A program made the position numbers and the translations under genes. Positions 9,391-27,107 of a DNA stretch of 64,000 bases are shown one piece after another; the stretch's first letter is position 1, and each line of letters begins with the position of its first letter. This DNA comes from Balneolaceae bacterium (GTDB lineage Bacteria > Bacteroidota > Rhodothermia > Balneolales > Balneolaceae). Where the stretch lies: positions 434,001-498,000 of the forward strand of contig JAXHMK010000004.1 of NCBI GenBank assembly GCA_034521495.1, read 5' to 3'. Under the pieces are notes generated by a model. It worked only from the letters and a program-made list of their open reading frames with translations. It was not told the origin of the DNA and made no database searches.

Positions 9391-12225
9391 TTATTGAGAA
9401 TCTTCAGCAAGTAGGTTTTTGAACTCTTCTAATTTTTCAGGTTTCGTCCACGAATCATAGAGTGTAACAAGATTTTCAATAGCTGTGTGTGTTCGGCTAT
9501 GAGTATCGCCCAGTTCTTCTGCAAGAATTTTATATCCTTCAATCAAAAGAGGTTCTGCTTCTTCGAACTTCTCCATTGCGGTAAGACACCTGCCCAATCG
9601 GCTTTTTATCAAACCGACCATCCAGTGGTTCTCGCCCGAAGAGGAGATTTGAATATCCAATGTTCTTTGAAGCAAGGGTTGAGCCTTTTCGGGTTCCCCG
9701 GTATCCAGGTGAATATGGGCAAGCCCAAGAAGCGGATAAGTAATCATGGGATGGTCATTCTCAAAATTTTGCAATAAAACATCGAGAGATTGCTCAAGAT
9801 ACTGTCGGGCCTCCGTGTATTGTTCCTGTCTGATCAGAGTCAACCCGAGGTTGTTCATCGTAAGTCCCGATTCTGAATGGGTTTCACCCAACCGGCTTTG
9901 CTGAATCTCAAGCGATTTTCTATAATAATTTTCAGAGGCTTTATAATTTTCTATTCGTCCCATCAAAATTCCCAAACTATTAAGAGTCTGTGAGATATCT
10001 GGATGCAGTGAATCAAGAACGTTTTTCTGAATATTAAGTGCTTGTTTTAAATTAACTTCTGACTCTTTGTATTCTTCAATATCAAGCAGAGCTGAGCCCA
10101 GGTGATATAAACTTTCTGCAATATCCGGATGTTGCTGATCAAAAATATTTCTTCTTATTTTCAGAGCATCTCTGTGATACTCTACAGCTTTTTCAACCTT
10201 TCCCATACGTTCACTAACACGGCCAAGATTGGTAAAGCTTGCCGCTATTCTCGGATGAGTGTCTCCAAAAAGTGTCCGATATAAATTCAGTGATTCAAGG
10301 TAATAATCGCGGGCTTCGGTGTATTCTCCCTGGCTTTCCATAAAATTACCAATATTATTGAGATCGTATGCAACTGACTCATGTGATTCGCCAAAAATTT
10401 CACGGTTCATGTCCAGCGCCTGCCGATAATATGGTTCGGCCTCATCAAACTCCCGTAGCTCTTTTAAAACGATGGCCAGGGAAGTCATTGTATTGGCAAT
10501 GGATTCGTCACTCTCTCCGTAAAGCTCGCGTTCCATTTGAAGAGCATCTCTGAGATAATTTTCTGCTTCTGAGTACTGGGCTCTATTCCAATAAAGAATT
10601 CCAAGGTTGTGGAGACTTTCGGCTATGTCATTATGGGGCGGAGTAAAATGATTTTCGCGAATCTGGTAGGCCCTGTTTAAAAGCTCATCCGCTTTTTCAT
10701 ACTCTCCCAGGTTCATGTACACACGTCCGGTAAGATCAAGCATTTGTGCCTGCACTTCCGGCTGTTCTTGTAACTGTTCGGCCTGATTAATACCACTTTC
10801 AAGAAGTTGGCGGGCAGTAACATTCTCACCCAGGGATTCGGAGGGATCACTGGCCTCAAACATACCCATCATAAATTCAGTTACCTGTTCCGCTTTCTCA
10901 GTTTCTTGTTCCGCTTGTTCCAATGCAGTTTGCGTGCGCTGGGAGTGATAGGTGATGGTTACTGCATAACCGATCAATAGAAGAATAATGACAGCAGTTG
11001 AAGCGACACCAATTTTATGGCGCTTTATAAATTTTTGGCTGCGATACAGGTATGAGTCGGGATGAGCGGAAACTGGCTTCCCCTGAAGGTAATTGTTGAT
11101 ATCAGATGCAAAGTGTCCGGCGGATTCGTACCTGCGATCAGGCTCCTTGTGCATTGCTTTGAGAACAATGATATCTAACTCTCCGCGCAACTGGCGCTGA
11201 AGCTGTTCGGGATCTGTTTTTCGAACAGAACCGATTTGCTGAGGAGTTACGGTTGAATCTTGATCAGGAATTTTGGTAATAGCTGTACTCGGTCGGGTGG
11301 GGATACTTTCACAGATAATATGTTCGATTTCACTGGGCGACCGGCCGGAAACATTGTAGGGTGTACAACCCGCAAGAAGTTCATAGAGTAAAACACCAAG
11401 CTGATAGATGTCGGAAGCCGTTGTAATGGATTCACCACGAATCTGTTCCGGGCTTGCATATGCAGGAGTCAGCGGCAGTAAACCGGTTTTTGTGACGGGC
11501 CTCGAACCTCCCAGGATTTCATCAGGTTTCAGGGCCTTGGCAATTCCGAAATCCAGCAGTTTCACGGATCCGTCATCTTCCACAAAAATGTTGGAAGGCT
11601 TGAGATCCCGGTGAACAATCAATTTTTGGTGAGCAAATTGAACGGCATTGCAAACATCTTTAAAAATCTCAAGCCGTTCTTTTACTGTAAGATGATTTTT
11701 GTCACAATATTCGTCAATGGGCAATCCTTCCACGTACTCCATGGCAAACCAGGGCTGACCGCTTTGCGTGATTCCGCCATCCATCAAGCGAGCGATGTTT
11801 TTATGAATCAGGGAAGCAAGGATTTGTCTTTCGGCCAGAAACCGCTGTTTCTGTGTATCCGAAATAAAACTGGTCCGAAGCAATTTCAGCGCTACTTGTT
11901 GATCATATTGTCCATCAGATCGTCTGGCCAGGAAGATACTTCCCATACCTCCATGCCCTATCTCTCTGATTATTTTGTATTTACCTATAACCTGATCTTT
12001 GTATGAATCTGTTTTAAACCGGGCAAACAGTGATTGCTTTAATTCCTCCGGCGATTTATCAAGAGGCCCCGGGTTTTTATGGGCGTCAAGCAGAGATTGG
12101 ACCTCTTCCAGCAATTCCCTGTCATCCCCGCAGGCTTCCTTCACAAAACTTTCCCGTTCTGATGATTCAACTTCCAGGGCATTCGAAAAGATCTGTTTGA
12201 TTTTTTGCCAGTTCTCAGTTGCCAT
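9391..12225 (-). CDS. Membrane-anchored Ser/Thr protein kinase with TPR repeats
   Basis: A 944-residue Hanks-type kinase. Residues 83-395 form the kinase domain: glycine loop IGHGGMGS (89-96), catalytic Lys114 (VALKLL), HRDLKPSN (205-212), DFG (225-227) and ASPEQ as the APE equivalent. One transmembrane helix follows (VASTAVIILLLIGYAVTI, about 403-423). The rest is about ten tetratricopeptide repeats of the Kinesin-light-chain type (repeated A..YY...L...R..G). The N-terminal 70 residues are the short ECF-partner region common to such kinases. The start is 8 bp after the sigma-factor stop, so they form one operon; the kinase probably signals to or from the sigma factor (inference). Confidence 0.93.
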   Translation of the reverse strand: MATENWQKIKQIFSNALEVESSERESFVKEACGDDRELLEEVQSLLDAHKNPGPLDKSPEELKQSLFARFKTDSYKDQVIGKYKIIREIGHGGMGSIFLARRSDGQYDQQVALKLLRTSFISDTQKQRFLAERQILASLIHKNIARLMDGGITQSGQPWFAMEYVEGLPIDEYCDKNHLTVKERLEIFKDVCNAVQFAHQKLIVHRDLKPSNIFVEDDGSVKLLDFGIAKALKPDEILGGSRPVTKTGLLPLTPAYASPEQIRGESITTASDIYQLGVLLYELLAGCTPYNVSGRSPSEIEHIICESIPTRPSTAITKIPDQDSTVTPQQIGSVRKTDPEQLQRQLRGELDIIVLKAMHKEPDRRYESAGHFASDINNYLQGKPVSAHPDSYLYRSQKFIKRHKIGVASTAVIILLLIGYAVTITYHSQRTQTALEQAEQETEKAEQVTEFMMGMFEASDPSESLGENVTARQLLESGINQAEQLQEQPEVQAQMLDLTGRVYMNLGEYEKADELLNRAYQIRENHFTPPHNDIAESLHNLGILYWNRAQYSEAENYLRDALQMERELYGESDESIANTMTSLAIVLKELREFDEAEPYYRQALDMNREIFGESHESVAYDLNNIGNFMESQGEYTEARDYYLESLNLYRTLFGDTHPRIAASFTNLGRVSERMGKVEKAVEYHRDALKIRRNIFDQQHPDIAESLYHLGSALLDIEEYKESEVNLKQALNIQKNVLDSLHPDISQTLNSLGILMGRIENYKASENYYRKSLEIQQSRLGETHSESGLTMNNLGLTLIRQEQYTEARQYLEQSLDVLLQNFENDHPMITYPLLGLAHIHLDTGEPEKAQPLLQRTLDIQISSSGENHWMVGLIKSRLGRCLTAMEKFEEAEPLLIEGYKILAEELGDTHSRTHTAIENLVTLYDSWTKPEKLEEFKNLLAEDSQ

Positions 12226-12233
12226 AATATTAA

Positions 12234-12800
12234 TTAGTTACTGTTATCAGCCAGCTCCCGATTTAACCAGGCACGCGCCATTTTCCAGTCGCGGCTGACG
12301 GTAGGCGTTGATATGCCGAGCGTTTCAGCAGTTTCCTCAATCGTTAGTCCTCCAAAGAACCGGCATTCAACCACTCGAACCTGCCTTTCATCCAATTTTT
12401 CAAGCTTTTTGAGTGCTTCATGAACAGAAAGGAGGTCATGTATATTCATTTCTGTAATGGCGTCCGCTTCTCCCAGGGTTACTCTCTGTTGCTTCCCACC
12501 TCGTTTTTGAGCCTGTTTTTTTACTGCGTAATCCACAAGAATATTTCGCATAACCTGTGATGCGATACCAAAAAAGTGAGATCGGTTTTGCCAGTCAATC
12601 CGGTTAAAGTCTACCAATTTAAGATATGCTTCGTGAACCAATGCTTTTGTGCTTAAAGTGTGGCCTGCCCGTTCACCCAAAAGACGCTGGTGAGCCATTT
12701 GCTGCATTTCATTGTAAACAAGTGGCATTAGCTTATCCAGAGCTTGGTTTTCGCCAGATGCATGGGCCTCAAGAAGTTTTGTAATTCTATTTTTCTCCAT
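12234..12800 (-). CDS. ECF-subfamily RNA polymerase sigma factor (TIGR02999-like)
   Basis: A 188-residue extracytoplasmic-function sigma factor. Region 2 is visible at about 50-105 (HEAYLKLVDFNRIDWQNRSH, then FFGIASQVMRNILVDYA) and region 4 at about 130-180 (VVECRFFGGLTIEETAETLG, then TPTVSRDWKMARAWL). This subgroup is known to sit next to Ser/Thr kinases in Bacteroidota, Acidobacteria and Planctomycetes and is thought to be controlled by phosphorylation rather than an anti-sigma factor. It is first in the two-gene operon with the kinase-TPR protein and divergent from the cupin-to-methyltransferase operon, its most likely target by context. Confidence 0.92.
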   Translation of the reverse strand: MEKNRITKLLEAHASGENQALDKLMPLVYNEMQQMAHQRLLGERAGHTLSTKALVHEAYLKLVDFNRIDWQNRSHFFGIASQVMRNILVDYAVKKQAQKRGGKQQRVTLGEADAITEMNIHDLLSVHEALKKLEKLDERQVRVVECRFFGGLTIEETAETLGISTPTVSRDWKMARAWLNRELADNSN

Positions 12801-12969: not shown

Positions 12970-13422
12970 ATGAACCAAATATTTAAAACAACTATAAATC
13001 TGAGTATAATCATTTTTCTAATTCCTACAGCAATTCTGGCTCAAAGTGAAAGTCCTGAGAAGGCTTTTACGACAGAAAAAGAGTCCGCGAATCTTGAATG
13101 GGGACCGTGTCCTGAATTTATGCCGGAAAGTTGCAGTATTTCTGTTCTTCAGGGAGATCCATCTCAGCCGAATACAGATATCTTTTTCAAAATGCAGGGG
13201 AATACCAAAGTTCCGAATCACTGGCACAACTCAGCCGAACGGATGGTTCTCATAGCAGGAGAAATGACGGTAGATTATGAAGGACAATCGCCGGTTACAA
13301 TAACCACTGGAGAGTATGCATATGGCCCACCGGAATTGCCACATACTGCTTCTTGCGAATCGAGTGAGCCATGTGTGCTTTTCATTGCATTTAACGAACC
13401 TGTAGATGCTTTTGAAAAATAA
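12970..13422 (+). CDS. Secreted cupin-domain protein
   Basis: A 150-residue protein with a Sec signal peptide (residues 1-24, ending ILAQ) and a single cupin barrel: N-x-W-H motif PNHWHNSAERMVLIAGEMTV (about 80-99) and the second motif PPELPHTASC (about 118-127). His residues in both motifs would bind a metal. Similar small cupins act as metal-binding sensors or dioxygenases in the periplasm. Four cysteines (positions 48, 55, 128, 133 approximately) could form disulfides. First gene of a seven-gene plus-strand operon divergent from the ECF sigma factor. Confidence 0.85.
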   Translation: MNQIFKTTINLSIIIFLIPTAILAQSESPEKAFTTEKESANLEWGPCPEFMPESCSISVLQGDPSQPNTDIFFKMQGNTKVPNHWHNSAERMVLIAGEMTVDYEGQSPVTITTGEYAYGPPELPHTASCESSEPCVLFIAFNEPVDAFEK

Positions 13423-13456: not shown

Positions 13457-13729
13457 ATGAAAAAATATATTATTGAACGGGAAATCCCCGGAGTGGAAAA
13501 GCTTTCAGAACGTGACACAAAAGCAGCCGCATTACAATCAAACCGGGCCCTCGCCGAATTGGGTCCGGATATTCAGTGGCAGCACAGTTATATCAGCAAA
13601 GACAGAACTCACTGTGTGTACATCGCCAAAGATGAAAACATTATCAGAAAACATGCGGAGAAAATAGGCACTCCGATTATATCCGTCACAGAAGTAAAAA
13701 GCATGTGGGACCCGACAACTTCAGATTGA
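13457..13729 (+). CDS. DUF4242 protein (SCO4226-like putative metal-binding ferredoxin-fold protein)
   Basis: A 90-residue cytoplasmic protein with the DUF4242 pattern: an N-terminal strand YIIEREIPGV, a helix rich in Ala, WQHSYISKDRTHCVYIAKDE (about 41-60), and IRKHAEKIGTPIISVTEV at the end. The family has an alpha-beta ferredoxin fold, and one Streptomyces member (SCO4226) binds nickel. His and Cys residues in the central segment are kept. Starts 34 bp after the cupin gene and shares its operon; a role with the cupin in metal or stress response is only inference. Confidence 0.8.
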   Translation: MKKYIIEREIPGVEKLSERDTKAAALQSNRALAELGPDIQWQHSYISKDRTHCVYIAKDENIIRKHAEKIGTPIISVTEVKSMWDPTTSD

Positions 13730-13784: not shown

Positions 13785-14234
13785 ATGACTACCCAAAAAT
13801 TAAAAAAGATCAACACAGTAATTTTCTCAATTTTCTTAATTCCGGTTACCATTTGGAGTCAGCCACATTCAGACATAACAGTACAGGGGGAGGTATCAGG
13901 ATTTGACTGCGCGGTGGTTGAAGTTCTATGTCCCACAACCCATCGAGGTGCCGATTATACGAACGGTATATTTACCGAAGAAAAGGAGTTCTTCTTTGTG
14001 GTAAATATTCCACAAAGCTTTCTGCGCCAATATTTTCGTGAAACGTTTGTGGTAGAAGGCGCCATGTATGAGCCATATACCAAAGCTGTAGAACCAGAAA
14101 CCATTCAGTTGATCGAAAATGGTGAACGGCGTCTTGTTTATGAATCCGGCTACTTTATTGATGGAGAAGGCCGACGCGCAACATTCCAGGATGGTGTGGT
14201 GCAAAATGGTGAATGGACTGTAGAGGAAGAATAA
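13785..14234 (+). CDS. Secreted protein of unknown function
   Basis: A 149-residue protein that I do not recognise. It has a hydrophobic N-terminal signal (VIFSIFLIPVTIWSQ, about 12-26), then a beta-rich domain beginning ITVQGEVSGFDCAVVEVLCP with two Cys (about 40 and 47) and a second repeat-like stretch rich in Gly/Asp near the end (GYFIDGEGRRATFQDGVV). The start is ATG at 13785, 55 bp after DUF4242 in the same operon. Predicted periplasmic or exported; shared expression with a cupin and a TPR protein suggests an envelope role. Confidence 0.7.
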   Translation: MTTQKLKKINTVIFSIFLIPVTIWSQPHSDITVQGEVSGFDCAVVEVLCPTTHRGADYTNGIFTEEKEFFFVVNIPQSFLRQYFRETFVVEGAMYEPYTKAVEPETIQLIENGERRLVYESGYFIDGEGRRATFQDGVVQNGEWTVEEE

Positions 14235-14284: not shown

Positions 14285-15919
14285 ATGAGTAATTATAAGC
14301 ATCTAATTATTAGCATTATCATATTGATATCATTGATTATATCCCACAGGTTAAGTGCACAAGAACATATGCACGAGGAATTTCCTGTTGGAGAGGATAC
14401 CCCAATTGGAGAGGTGAATTTTGAAGCCAATTGCAGTGCGGAGGTTCAGGATGATGTGAATCGGGCTTTGGGGATGCTGCATCACATGATGTACGAAACA
14501 TCCCGGAGCTATTTCGAAGCCATTTCAGAAACCGATCCCAATTGTGCGATGGCTTACTGGGGAGTTGCAACTACTCTGTTTCAACCTCTTTGGGGAACCC
14601 GTCCAAGTGAAGAAGATATTCAGCAAGGCTGGCAAACCATCAACAAAGCGATAGATGTGGCCGAATCGGAACGCGAAAAACTGCTGATTCAATCAACTGC
14701 CGGTTTTTTTCGTGAACCGGAAACGGCCGATTTTCAAACCCGGATCCGGCGATGGACGGAGGGAATGGAGGATGTATATGAATCTTATCCCGATGATCTG
14801 GACATTGCAGCATTTTATGCACTTACACGGCTTACAATTGCACAGTTTGCAGAGAATTCTTCCCCGCTTCTTGATGAAGCTGAAACGATTCTTCGTGAGG
14901 TTTACGAACAGGAACCCACACATCCGGGTGCCATTCATTACACAATACATGCAACCGATATCGACGGACGTGCAGAAAATGCCCTGGATATCGTTGAAGC
15001 ATACGGTGAAATTGCCCCGGACGTTCCCCATGCACTCCATATGCCCACGCATATCTATGTTCGGCTGGGTGACTGGCCAAATGTGATTGACTGGAATCTG
15101 AGGTCAGCCGAAGCGGCTCTGAATCATCCGGTAAATGGAGCCGAATCCCACCATTACCTCCATGCAATGGACTATTTGGCGTATGCCTACCTGCAACAAG
15201 GTAAAGACGACATGGCTGAAAAAGTATTCAAAGAAGTGTTGAATAAAGAGAAGCACCAGGCGTCATTTGTAAGCGCATTTCACTTATCTGGAATTCCCGC
15301 ACGCTTGGCCGTGGAACAAAGAGACTGGGAGCGGGCTACAGAACTGGAGCCGCGAACTCCGGCTTATCTGCCCTGGGATGCATCTCCCTGGCCTGAAGGA
15401 ATGACGTGGTATGCGAAAGGACTGGGGGCCGTGCACACCGGCGATCTTCACTCTGCAAAAAAATCGGAACAGAAACTCCGTGAACTACGCGACCGGGCAA
15501 GTGAAAGTGGATCCGATAATATGGCCAATTATATAGAAATTGAGCGCCGGGTTTTAGAAGGCTGGATTGCACATGAAGAGGGCGATGCTGACCGGGCGGT
15601 TGAATTGATGAAATCAGCAGCCGATCTGGAAGAAACCGTTGAAAAGCATCCGGTTACGCCGGGAGCGTTGCAACCGCCATACGAAGCTCTTGGTGACCTG
15701 CTCCTGGAACTGGATCGTCCGACCGAAGCACTGAATGCGTATGAGGCCTCTGATGACATCTGGCCGGGCCGAATGAATACTCTTCTGGGTGCTGCCGTTT
15801 CAGCCAGGGTGATTGGTGAACATCAGAAAGCCAGAAGCCACATTGCAAAATTGTTGCAAAGTAGCAGAATACAGGAAATCTCATCAAACACTGAATTCAT
15901 TGGTGAAGTGGATAGATGA
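14285..15919 (+). CDS. Periplasmic TPR-repeat protein
   Basis: A 544-residue protein with a signal peptide (hydrophobic 8-21, cleavage after SAQ) and several tetratricopeptide repeats (for example MAYWGVATTLFQPLW near 81, HYLHAMDYLAYAYLQQGKDD near 293, and two more near 440-500). A His-rich stretch HPGAIHYTIHATD (about 220-232) and HMPTHIYVRLGDWPNVI (about 257-273) are typical of a conserved TPR family found in Bacteroidota and Proteobacteria whose biochemical role is not known to me. It is preceded by a purine-rich AAAAAAAGAGAGAG leader that may serve as ribosome binding site. Fourth gene of the operon. Confidence 0.85.
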   Translation: MSNYKHLIISIIILISLIISHRLSAQEHMHEEFPVGEDTPIGEVNFEANCSAEVQDDVNRALGMLHHMMYETSRSYFEAISETDPNCAMAYWGVATTLFQPLWGTRPSEEDIQQGWQTINKAIDVAESEREKLLIQSTAGFFREPETADFQTRIRRWTEGMEDVYESYPDDLDIAAFYALTRLTIAQFAENSSPLLDEAETILREVYEQEPTHPGAIHYTIHATDIDGRAENALDIVEAYGEIAPDVPHALHMPTHIYVRLGDWPNVIDWNLRSAEAALNHPVNGAESHHYLHAMDYLAYAYLQQGKDDMAEKVFKEVLNKEKHQASFVSAFHLSGIPARLAVEQRDWERATELEPRTPAYLPWDASPWPEGMTWYAKGLGAVHTGDLHSAKKSEQKLRELRDRASESGSDNMANYIEIERRVLEGWIAHEEGDADRAVELMKSAADLEETVEKHPVTPGALQPPYEALGDLLLELDRPTEALNAYEASDDIWPGRMNTLLGAAVSARVIGEHQKARSHIAKLLQSSRIQEISSNTEFIGEVDR

Positions 15920-15958: not shown

Positions 15959-16693
15959 ATGGGACGAATACTCTCTTTTATCTACGGCATTGTAGCTTAT
16001 GTTATTTTTTTAGGATCCTTTCTCTATGCCATCGCATTTGTTGGCGACTTTTGGGTTCCCAAAACGATCAATACGGGAACAGACGCTTCTTCGTTGGGAA
16101 CTGCTTTACTGGTAAATGCCGGATTGCTTGGGCTGTTTGCCGTTCAGCACTCGGTTATGGCACGGCAGGGATTTAAGAAATGGTGGACCCGTATCATTCC
16201 AAAACAGATAGAACGCAGCACCTACGTGCTCATCAGCAGTTTGCTTTTGATATTGCTTTTCTGGCAATGGCGTCCACTGCCGGAGGTAATCTGGAGTGTA
16301 GAATCCGGTTTGGGATATTATCTGTTGATGATACTGTTTTGGATTGGATGGGCAATTGTATTGCTTTCCACATTCATGATCAACCACTTCGACCTGTTCG
16401 GCCTGCGGCAAGTTTACCTGCATTTTAAAAAGGAAGAAATCACGCCGGTGGAATTTAAAGAACCCGGAATGTATAAGTATATGAGGCATCCGCTGATGTT
16501 TGGATTCCTGGTTGCTTTTTGGGCCGCTCCAACCATGACTCTCGGTCATCTTGCATTTGCGATTGCTACAACAGGGTATATTTTTGTGGGAATCTGGTTT
16601 GAAGAGAAAGATTTGATTCGATTTCACGGAGAAAAATATAAGGAATACAGGAAGCGCGTAAGAATGCTTCTACCGATTCCAAAAAACAAGTAA
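15959..16693 (+). CDS. mddA: MddA/NnrU-like membrane methyltransferase (methanethiol S-methyltransferase family)
   Basis: A 244-residue integral membrane protein with about six transmembrane helices. [14 protein letters not shown] (about 61-74) and [15 protein letters not shown] (about 82-96) match the NnrU/MddA branch. The C-terminal active-site region of the isoprenylcysteine carboxyl methyltransferase superfamily is present: [14 protein letters not shown] (about 171-184) with the conserved R-H-P, then [20 protein letters not shown]. MddA methylates methanethiol to dimethyl sulfide using SAM. The assignment to that exact reaction is by family resemblance; other thiols or protein substrates are possible. 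Followed 9 bp later by an OsmC-family gene and then another SAM methyltransferase. Confidence 0.75.
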
Positions 16694-16702
16694 GAATGGC
16701 TT

Positions 16703-17242
16703 ATGACGAATACCAAAACCATTAAAAAAGCTTTTGAACGAATTCGAACGCTTGTAAAAAAGAAACCTGAAATCGGTCAGAAAACAGTTAGCACCAACGT
16801 GCGGCTGAAAGAGGGAACCACCTGCGAAGTTGTACACAAAGACTGGACTTTCAAGGTTGATATTGGGCAATCAGAGGGAGGCAATAATGCAGGCCCCGGT
16901 CCGGGTTTGCTTCAGCGAGGAGCGCTGGGCGGTTGTCTTGCAATCGGATATGTGCAGCAAGCGGCGGTTATGGGTGTGCCAATCAACCATATTGAAGTAG
17001 AAATTGAAGCCGATAAGGATTTACAGGGCAGATTCGGGATTAACAACTCATCGCCCGGAAGTTTGCAGATTCGATATAATATTAAAATTGAAAGCCCGGC
17101 TTCGGAAGAAGATATCCATAAGGTTGTTGAAGAAGCCGACCGGTTTAGTCCTGTTTTGGATGATTTTCGAAGGGCTGTTCCCGTTGAAAGAAATTTGGAA
17201 ATTCGTAAAACCGAACAAAAGAGTAAGGAGGAACACCAATGA
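16703..17242 (+). CDS. OsmC-family protein lacking the second catalytic cysteine
   Basis: A 179-residue OsmC/Ohr-fold protein. The core has the first strand pair VSTNVRLKEGTTCEV, the helix with the peroxidatic-type Cys (LQRGALGGCLAIGYVQQAA, Cys about 76), and the C-terminal sheet. In peroxide-reducing OsmC/Ohr a second Cys follows near ...CP...; here the matching place reads ADRFSPVLDDF, with no Cys. It is thus probably an OsmC-like protein with a different thiol chemistry, not a canonical organic hydroperoxide reductase. It overlaps the next gene by 4 bp (ATGA), so the two are translationally coupled. Confidence 0.85.
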   Translation: MTNTKTIKKAFERIRTLVKKKPEIGQKTVSTNVRLKEGTTCEVVHKDWTFKVDIGQSEGGNNAGPGPGLLQRGALGGCLAIGYVQQAAVMGVPINHIEVEIEADKDLQGRFGINNSSPGSLQIRYNIKIESPASEEDIHKVVEEADRFSPVLDDFRRAVPVERNLEIRKTEQKSKEEHQ

Positions 17243-18054
17243 AACCAGCACTTCAACGACGTGTTCAGCGATATGGTTGGGATAAGGCTTCTGCAGTTTA
17301 TGAGGATTCCTGGAAAACCCAGTTAAAACCTGCACAGAACAAACTACTGGAGATGGCTGATCTGAAACCCGGTGAAACGGCTCTGGAAACAGCCTGTGGC
17401 ACAGGCTTGGTCACATTTCGAATTGCAGAGGCTGTGGGGCCCTCAGGCGAGATTGTAGCCACGGATCTTTCGGAGGAAATGATAAACCTGGCCCAAAAAA
17501 CTTCGGAAGAGAGAGGAATAGAGAACGTAACCTATAAAAGAATGGATGCGGAAAAGCTGGATTTAGAAGACAACCGGTTCGATGTTGCGATCAATGCGCT
17601 CGGATTGATGTACATACCCGACCCGGTTCAATCTTTAAAAGAGATGCACAGGGTTTTAAAACCTCACGGACAGGCCCTGATTGCCATTTGGGGAGAGCGA
17701 AAAAACTGTGGTTGGGCCGAAATTTTTCCAATCGTTGACAAACGAGTGGAATCGGATGTTTGTCCGTTATTCTTTCAACAAGGAACCGGAAATACAATTG
17801 AGATTTCAATGTCAGAAGCTGGTTTTAAAGAGATTAAGACAGAACGGTTTTCTGCAGATTTGTACTATCCTTCAGATGAATTAGCACTCTCGGCGGCTTT
17901 TGCGGGCGGACCTGTGGCTCTTGCTTATAAAAAATTCGATAAAAAAACCCGTGAGGAAGCTCATCAGGAATATCTTGACTCTATTGCTGTATATAAGAGT
18001 GACAAAGGCTACAATATTCCCGGAGAATTTGTAGTGGCTGCAGGAGTAAAATAA
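17239..18054 (+). CDS. Class I SAM-dependent methyltransferase (UbiE/Coq5-like fold)
   Basis: A 271-residue soluble methyltransferase. Motif I is ALETACGTGLVTFRIA (about 49-64), the SAM-ribose acidic residue is in VATDLSEEMI (about 73-82), motif II/post II reads FDVAINALGLMYIPDP (about 114-129) and motif III VLKPHGQALIAIW (about 140-152). The substrate is unknown. Overlap with the OsmC-like gene and the presence of a second methyltransferase in the operon suggest joint processing of a small sulfur compound (inference). A strong terminator follows. Confidence 0.85.
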   Translation: MKPALQRRVQRYGWDKASAVYEDSWKTQLKPAQNKLLEMADLKPGETALETACGTGLVTFRIAEAVGPSGEIVATDLSEEMINLAQKTSEERGIENVTYKRMDAEKLDLEDNRFDVAINALGLMYIPDPVQSLKEMHRVLKPHGQALIAIWGERKNCGWAEIFPIVDKRVESDVCPLFFQQGTGNTIEISMSEAGFKEIKTERFSADLYYPSDELALSAAFAGGPVALAYKKFDKKTREEAHQEYLDSIAVYKSDKGYNIPGEFVVAAGVK

Positions 18055-18064
18055 CGTGAGTATA

Positions 18065-18098
18065 AAAAAAAGGCTCTCAAAAAATGAGAGCCTTTTTA
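18065..18098. terminator. Bidirectional rho-independent terminator between the methyltransferase operon and gyrA
   Basis: Perfect 12-bp stem AAAAGGCTCTCA / TGAGAGCCTTTT with a 5-nt A loop, A-rich on the left and T-rich on the right. It lies between two convergent genes (stops at 18054 and 18120) and so can end both transcripts. Confidence 0.9.
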
Positions 18099-18139
18099 AG
18101 TTTATATGCGAGTAATAAATCAGCTTACGACGGGTGGAT

Positions 18140-27107
<8,968 letters not shown>

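Follow-up and report, generated by a model that had tools for sequence, protein, structure and literature searches.

Proteins of the OsmC fold are usually taken as peroxidases. Among the thiol peroxidases Ohr, OsmC and YhfA, the peroxidatic cysteine of Ohr and OsmC is neighboured by an arginine and a glutamate, and YhfA proteins with neither residue are described (PMC8945050). OsmC-like selenoproteins with a UXXT motif have also been listed (PMC1088965). On the side of thiol methylation, GtmA is reported to methylate both sulfurs of the dithiol gliotoxin (PMC5356443), and MddH, MddM1 and MddM2 are described as UbiE/UbiG-type enzymes methylating H2S/methanethiol (PMC12904073).

The window, i.e. 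the whole 64,000-nucleotide stretch of Balneolaceae DNA that was analysed, encodes an OsmC-like protein between two predicted methyltransferases. A preliminary description made from its letters alone had reported this arrangement, and it is present as three open reading frames on one strand (Table 1). We refer to the OsmC-like protein as OSM and to the methyltransferase downstream of it as MT. No description of an OsmC-MT pair, and no paper with both mddA and OsmC, was found in the open literature, a scope outside of which most subscription journals lie.

The locus and its neighbours

Table 1. Features of the window in and around the osm-mt locus
Feature	Coordinates	Strand	Basis
Ser/Thr kinase with TPR repeats, divergent	9391-12225	-	read from its sequence
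ECF sigma factor, divergent	12234-12800	-	
Cupin, variable neighbour	12970-13422	+	
SCO4226-like/DUF4242 protein, variable neighbour	13457-13729	+	
149-aa protein, variable neighbour	13785-14234	+	
TPR-repeat protein, 544 aa, common neighbour of the pair in Balneolota	14285-15919	+	
mddA, predicted membrane methanethiol S-methyltransferase, 244 aa	15959-16693	+	NCBIfam NF045656
osm, OsmC-fold protein, 179 aa; C41, R72, C78, Ser149 at the resolving-Cys site	16703-17242	+	Pfam OsmC
mt, class I SAM methyltransferase, UbiE-type, 271 aa; invariant C157 and C175	17239-18054	+	
Terminator-like hairpin 3' of mt, readable both ways	18067-18097	+	13 pairs, then a T run

The stop of osm and the start of mt share four bases, ATGA (17239-17242), consistent with the translational coupling claimed in the preliminary description, and the two products are probably made together via coupled translation. 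All three genes, mddA, osm and mt, apparently form a single operon. The number of terminator-like sites in the region (7) is close to that in shuffled sequence (5.5 ± 2.5), so only the strength of the hairpin downstream of mt counts in favour of a terminator. The membrane enzyme resembles MddA, as had been proposed, scoring 362.6 bits against the curated equivalog cut-off of 270, and it is the only copy above this cut-off in its own genome; it is accordingly annotated here as an enzyme predicted to make dimethyl sulfide from methanethiol and SAM.

The divergent ECF sigma factor and TPR-repeat Ser/Thr kinase (9391-12800) were found repeatedly by the OsmC-MT pair in Balneolota, which suggests a dedicated stress regulator for the pair. 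Also in Balneolota, a second, smaller class I methyltransferase of 217-231 aa often adjoins OsmC and sometimes lies between OsmC and MT (L120:9277-9969, L123, L058, L060). A berberine-bridge-type FAD oxidoreductase was repeatedly located near the pair in Rhodohalobacter and Fodinibius (L123:5397-6875, with a Pfam match on this copy; L110:8379-9800). Downstream of the locus, two tandem 4.3-kb gyrA-gyrB copies (18138-22466 and 22465-26793) with 99.5% identity stem from a duplication of recent date or from a fault in the assembly.

Conservation of the OsmC-methyltransferase pair

The constant unit across genomes is the OsmC-MT pair, not the set of three genes. An OsmC orthologue (E ≤ 1e-30) was found in 29 of 58 relatives, the genome of the window counted among them, and at each of these 29 loci an MT lay on the same strand in the fetched flank, including two loci where it is cut by the contig end (L018) or by the locus end (L031). 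When named genomes were scanned with an alignment of MT and the best 80 of 258 loci were taken, a match of at least 83 bits to the OsmC family model was located close to MT in 75 of the 80. Four of the other five (L072, L085, L099, L105) have their MT at most 190 bases from a contig edge, and the fifth (L110), a second MT copy in Fodinibius roseus, has its flanks present and no OsmC. When the 34 loci judged to be Balneolota were set aside, OsmC still accompanied MT at 45 of 46 loci.

By record titles, the MT loci belong to Balneolota, Bacteroidota, Ignavibacteriota, Calditrichota, Gemmatimonadota, Acidobacteriota, Pseudomonadota, Rhodothermota and SAR324; most of these records are metagenome bins in which stray contigs are possible, and the spread is stated as at least eight phyla. 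The pair was found in Rhodohalobacter, Fodinibius, Algoriphagus, Christiangramia and Flavihumibacter, and no constant third gene was observed outside Balneolota among the clusters listed. The samples overlap, in that many of the named-genome MT loci (L067-L091, L118, L123 and others) and of the loci from the Algoriphagus phylum come from Balneolota genomes that are also in the 58-relative set.

The reverse control consisted of OsmC searches in phylum samples of Acidobacteriota (3 of 199 genomes), Gemmatimonadota (18 of 200) and the phylum of the Algoriphagus genome (28 of 296). The matches fell into two classes with a clear gap, at least 190 bits and below 120 bits, and MT was present in the fetched flank of 32 of the 35 strong matches versus none of 16 weak ones, three further weak matches in the Algoriphagus-phylum sample having no fetched locus and standing outside the 16. 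No MT was found on 15 kb around the three strong orphans (L194, L207, L213).

Among 59 loci with OsmC 5' of MT, the genes overlap in 13 and lie at most 20 nt apart in 43, the gaps at L094 and L102 being approximate with MT starts placed on a non-start codon. The order is turned round at two Pseudomonadota loci (L115 and L139), where MT lies 5' of OsmC with the genes adjoining, and these were not counted as overlaps. A candidate OsmC-MT fusion in L027 was rejected on account of a TGA stop between the two. The distance matrices of OSM and MT correlated with r = 0.51, a value reached in 0 of 999 permutations, and shared ancestry alone could give such an r.

MddA is an optional yet linked companion, occurring also without the pair just as the pair occurs also without MddA. 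It was detected in 5 of the 58 relative genomes, each time inside an OsmC-MT cluster, and thus in 5 of the 29 pair-bearing relatives, and among the best 80 of 258 MT loci it was seen at 4 and not at the other 76, as far as the fetched flanks reach. In phylum samples, MddA exceeded its cut-off in 23 of 395 genomes and MT was found in 21 of 390. Both occurred in 13 genomes, on the same strand and at most 10.8 kb apart in 12; in the remaining one (G423) they lie on separate contigs, and one of the 12 linked genomes, Melioribacter G087, is from beyond the family of the window. A hypergeometric test on lists drawn from these samples of 395 (MddA) and 390 (MT) genomes gave P ~3e-13 with genomes treated as independent, yet 11 of the 13 come from one family, so that the real number of co-occurrence events is much lower. 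The MT query that had matched in 21 of 390 genomes was also run directly on the 10 MddA genomes left of the 23, and it matched in none of them.

Cysteines and folds of the two proteins

OSM matches Pfam OsmC with 52.8 bits, and its structure model (mean pLDDT 95.8) aligned to OsmC/Ohr structures with Z up to 15.9, so that the structural comparison named as a check in the preliminary description places it in the OsmC fold. Its best PDB sequence match, 2OPL (GSU2788), reads SPV and aligns over residues 2-160 with a Z of 15.1. In the window protein, Cys78 lies in GGCLAIG and Ser149 in RFSPVLDD, bearing out the earlier observation that the first cysteine is kept and that FSP occupies the site of the second. 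The arginine in the GGRNG motif of the Ohr structure 6mjn, which we take to be the catalytic arginine next to the peroxidatic cysteine, aligns to window residue 37, counted by hand on the alignment, and this residue is Glu37. Ser149 and Glu37 thus leave the window OSM with neither the canonical second cysteine nor the arginine.

The 62 aligned family members display the same pattern. R13, R72 and C78 are present in all 62 and C41 in 58, being missing in 4; position 149 is Ser in 57 and Cys in 3, and the residue-37 column holds Arg in 2. Comparison of 36 strong OSM rows with 22 other OsmC rows separated the two groups at C41 (36 versus 0, position 41 being a gap in 4 of the 22), R72 (36 versus 1) and Cys149 (3 versus 21), whereas C78 was common to both (36 versus 22). 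The alignments (A3/A4) include rows from phyla searched later. As judged from these alignments, the family has swapped a cysteine rather than merely lost one, the resolving cysteine having gone and C41 having been gained. The earlier claim of one missing cysteine holds for the loss of the resolving residue, but a single remaining cysteine does not fit, as the protein carries C41 and C78 as a relocated pair.

Compared with Ohr, OsmC and YhfA, OSM shares the fold and the cysteine at the peroxidatic position and differs by the serine in place of the resolving cysteine, by a column at the position of the catalytic Ohr arginine that rarely holds Arg, and by the new C41 and R72. YhfA, too, is without this Arg and the Glu, yet both of its cysteines are retained (PMC8945050). 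The scarcity of Arg at position 37 and the prevalence of Ser149 agree with the earlier expectation that the protein is not a normal peroxidase.

MT belongs to a sharply bounded family, with matches among frames of at least 120 aa in the scanned loci scoring either ≥392 bits or ≤101 bits and none between. C157, C175, Y12-G13-W14, W151, R154 and W159 are identical in all 102 strong rows, and none of 21 weaker matches has a cysteine at 157 or 175, where 15 and 16 of them, respectively, have no alignment. The window MT stays below the cut-off of every NCBIfam model shown for it, scoring 86.0 and 87.4 bits with the UbiE/MenG quinone methyltransferase models (cut-offs 158.35 and 235, respectively) and 79.4 bits with the ArsM arsenite methyltransferase model (cut-off 263).

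The best structural match of the MT model was the fungal gliotoxin bis-thiomethyltransferase GtmA (Z 25.4 over 254 residues, rmsd 3.7, 16% identity), followed by TmtA (25.2), OxaG (23.8) and RoqN (23.3). GtmA and TmtA are two names for one gliotoxin thiomethyltransferase, which leads OxaG by just 1.4-1.6 Z. In comparison by sequence only, other methyltransferases outscore GtmA/TmtA, and the nearness to this enzyme is therefore a lead rather than a proof. We know of no OsmC partner of GtmA. With this modelled fold as a guide, a thiol (S-)methyltransferase is the tentatively favoured assignment of MT. It would share its kind of chemistry with MddH, MddM1 and MddM2, of which MddM1 and MddM2 are 210 and 204 aa long (PMC12904073); the window MT has 271 aa.

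Possible roles of the pair

OSM and MT may constitute an uncharacterised two-protein system that methylates sulfur compounds. Tentatively, we lean towards a mechanism in which MT S-methylates a small thiol or dithiol with OSM as its substrate-handling partner, and MddA, where present, performs the same chemistry. MT would transfer the methyl group of SAM to a reactive small thiol or dithiol; OSM, devoid of the peroxidase residues and equipped with the new C41 in its second strand, would bind or present the thiol via C78 and C41; and MddA, where encoded, would act as a membrane enzyme converting methanethiol to dimethyl sulfide. From the pairing, the cysteine exchange, the invariant MT cysteines, the GtmA/TmtA match and the MddA linkage, we infer S-methylation, a physical OSM-MT complex and the role of OSM as substrate handler. 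Counted against S-methylation are the single GtmA/TmtA lead at 16% identity, the three OSM genes and the one MT found alone within the stretches covered, as well as the OSM members that have no C41 or have Cys149. With MddA not seen at 76 of the best 80 MT loci (of 258) and with no constant third neighbour outside Balneolota, loci devoid of MddA hold no pointer to sulfur.

The preliminary description had suggested a small-thiol methylation pathway made up of the three genes. Its thiol theme finds indirect support in the GtmA/TmtA match and the MddA linkage; its three genes do not form a fixed pathway, given that MddA was seen at just 4 of the best 80 of 258 MT loci and that 5 of the 29 relatives with the pair have it. 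The role of thiol carrier that it proposed for the OsmC fold stays a hypothesis. A bolder version of the S-methylation reading, which we consider doubtful, is that an OsmC-fold family was turned from a peroxidase into the dedicated thiol- or dithiol-presenting subunit of its own S-methyltransferase, a widespread and undescribed thiol-methylation machine in at least eight phyla. In such a conversion, the catalytic arginine would have been lost along with the resolving cysteine, and C41 in strand 2 would have been gained.

Annotation gene by gene conceals the OSM-MT pair. As a small module with conserved cysteines on both sides that is present in named strains, it is a ready target, and it could provide a further way of forming methylated sulfur gases or of detoxifying reactive thiols. 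A sulfur-gas role, if true, would make it a further member beside MddH, MddM1 and MddM2, with the OsmC partner as the new element.

An alternative that we judge unlikely is that OSM is a redox partner guarding or reactivating MT, in which the putative C41-C78 pair would resolve oxidised C157/C175 or the substrate, and a non-thiol acceptor would be methylated under oxidative stress. The OsmC fold of OSM suits this role, and so do the four conserved cysteines, two per protein, of which C78 alone is common to the paralogues aligning there; the nearest fold match of MT, however, is a thiol methyltransferase.

It is distinctly improbable that OSM works as a one-cysteine peroxidase that depends on an external thiol for its reduction, with MT as an independent enzyme in the same operon. 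C78 does occupy the peroxidatic position throughout the family (62 of 62), and other OsmC proteins with no second cysteine exist, such as 2OPL with its SPV, but the pairing is kept in many phyla, and outside Balneolota no third gene is constant among the clusters listed; C41 and R72 are characteristic of the OSM family, and the Ohr arginine column is seldom Arg.

Even less credence is given to metalloid methylation, in which the cysteines would bind arsenic, selenium or tellurium, MT would methylate in the manner of ArsM and OSM would deliver the substrate. Arsenite methyltransferase models matched all 63 MT rows (ArsM_AhpD_UU, best 1.1e-28), but the window MT scored 78-79 bits against cut-offs of 263-575 in these models, and menaquinone methyltransferase models match too. 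On the OSM side, the NCBIfam model NF041052 for an OsmC-related (seleno)protein matched all 62 rows, the window OSM scoring 63 bits against a cut-off of 95. A selenocysteine form was rejected, as all OSM matches listed in three phylum samples are free of in-frame stops. Among the 58 relatives, one stop each occurs in the OSM of L020, L027 and L032, that of L027 being its own stop, and all three have a cysteine at 78.

A fixed three-step dimethyl sulfide pathway of MddA, OSM and MT is the least probable reading and was rejected, since MddA, while adjoining the pair in the window and linked to it in 12 of the 13 genomes with both, accompanies it in just 5 of 29 pair-bearing relatives and MT is absent from 10 of 23 MddA genomes. 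In comparison with the known MddA system, the first of the three genes is above the NF045656 cut-off, but MddA is here an optional companion of OSM-MT and elsewhere occurs also without the pair.

Some MddA loci had arrangements of their own. In G181, which has no MT, the gene directly 5' of MddA encodes an OsmC from another subfamily that has its second cysteine as usual (L151:841-2235), and in Melioribacter a DUF4395 membrane protein sits between MddA and the OsmC-MT pair (L101:8984-9466). In G271, one OsmC-MT pair is located between two MddA genes, each ~5 kb from MT (L249).
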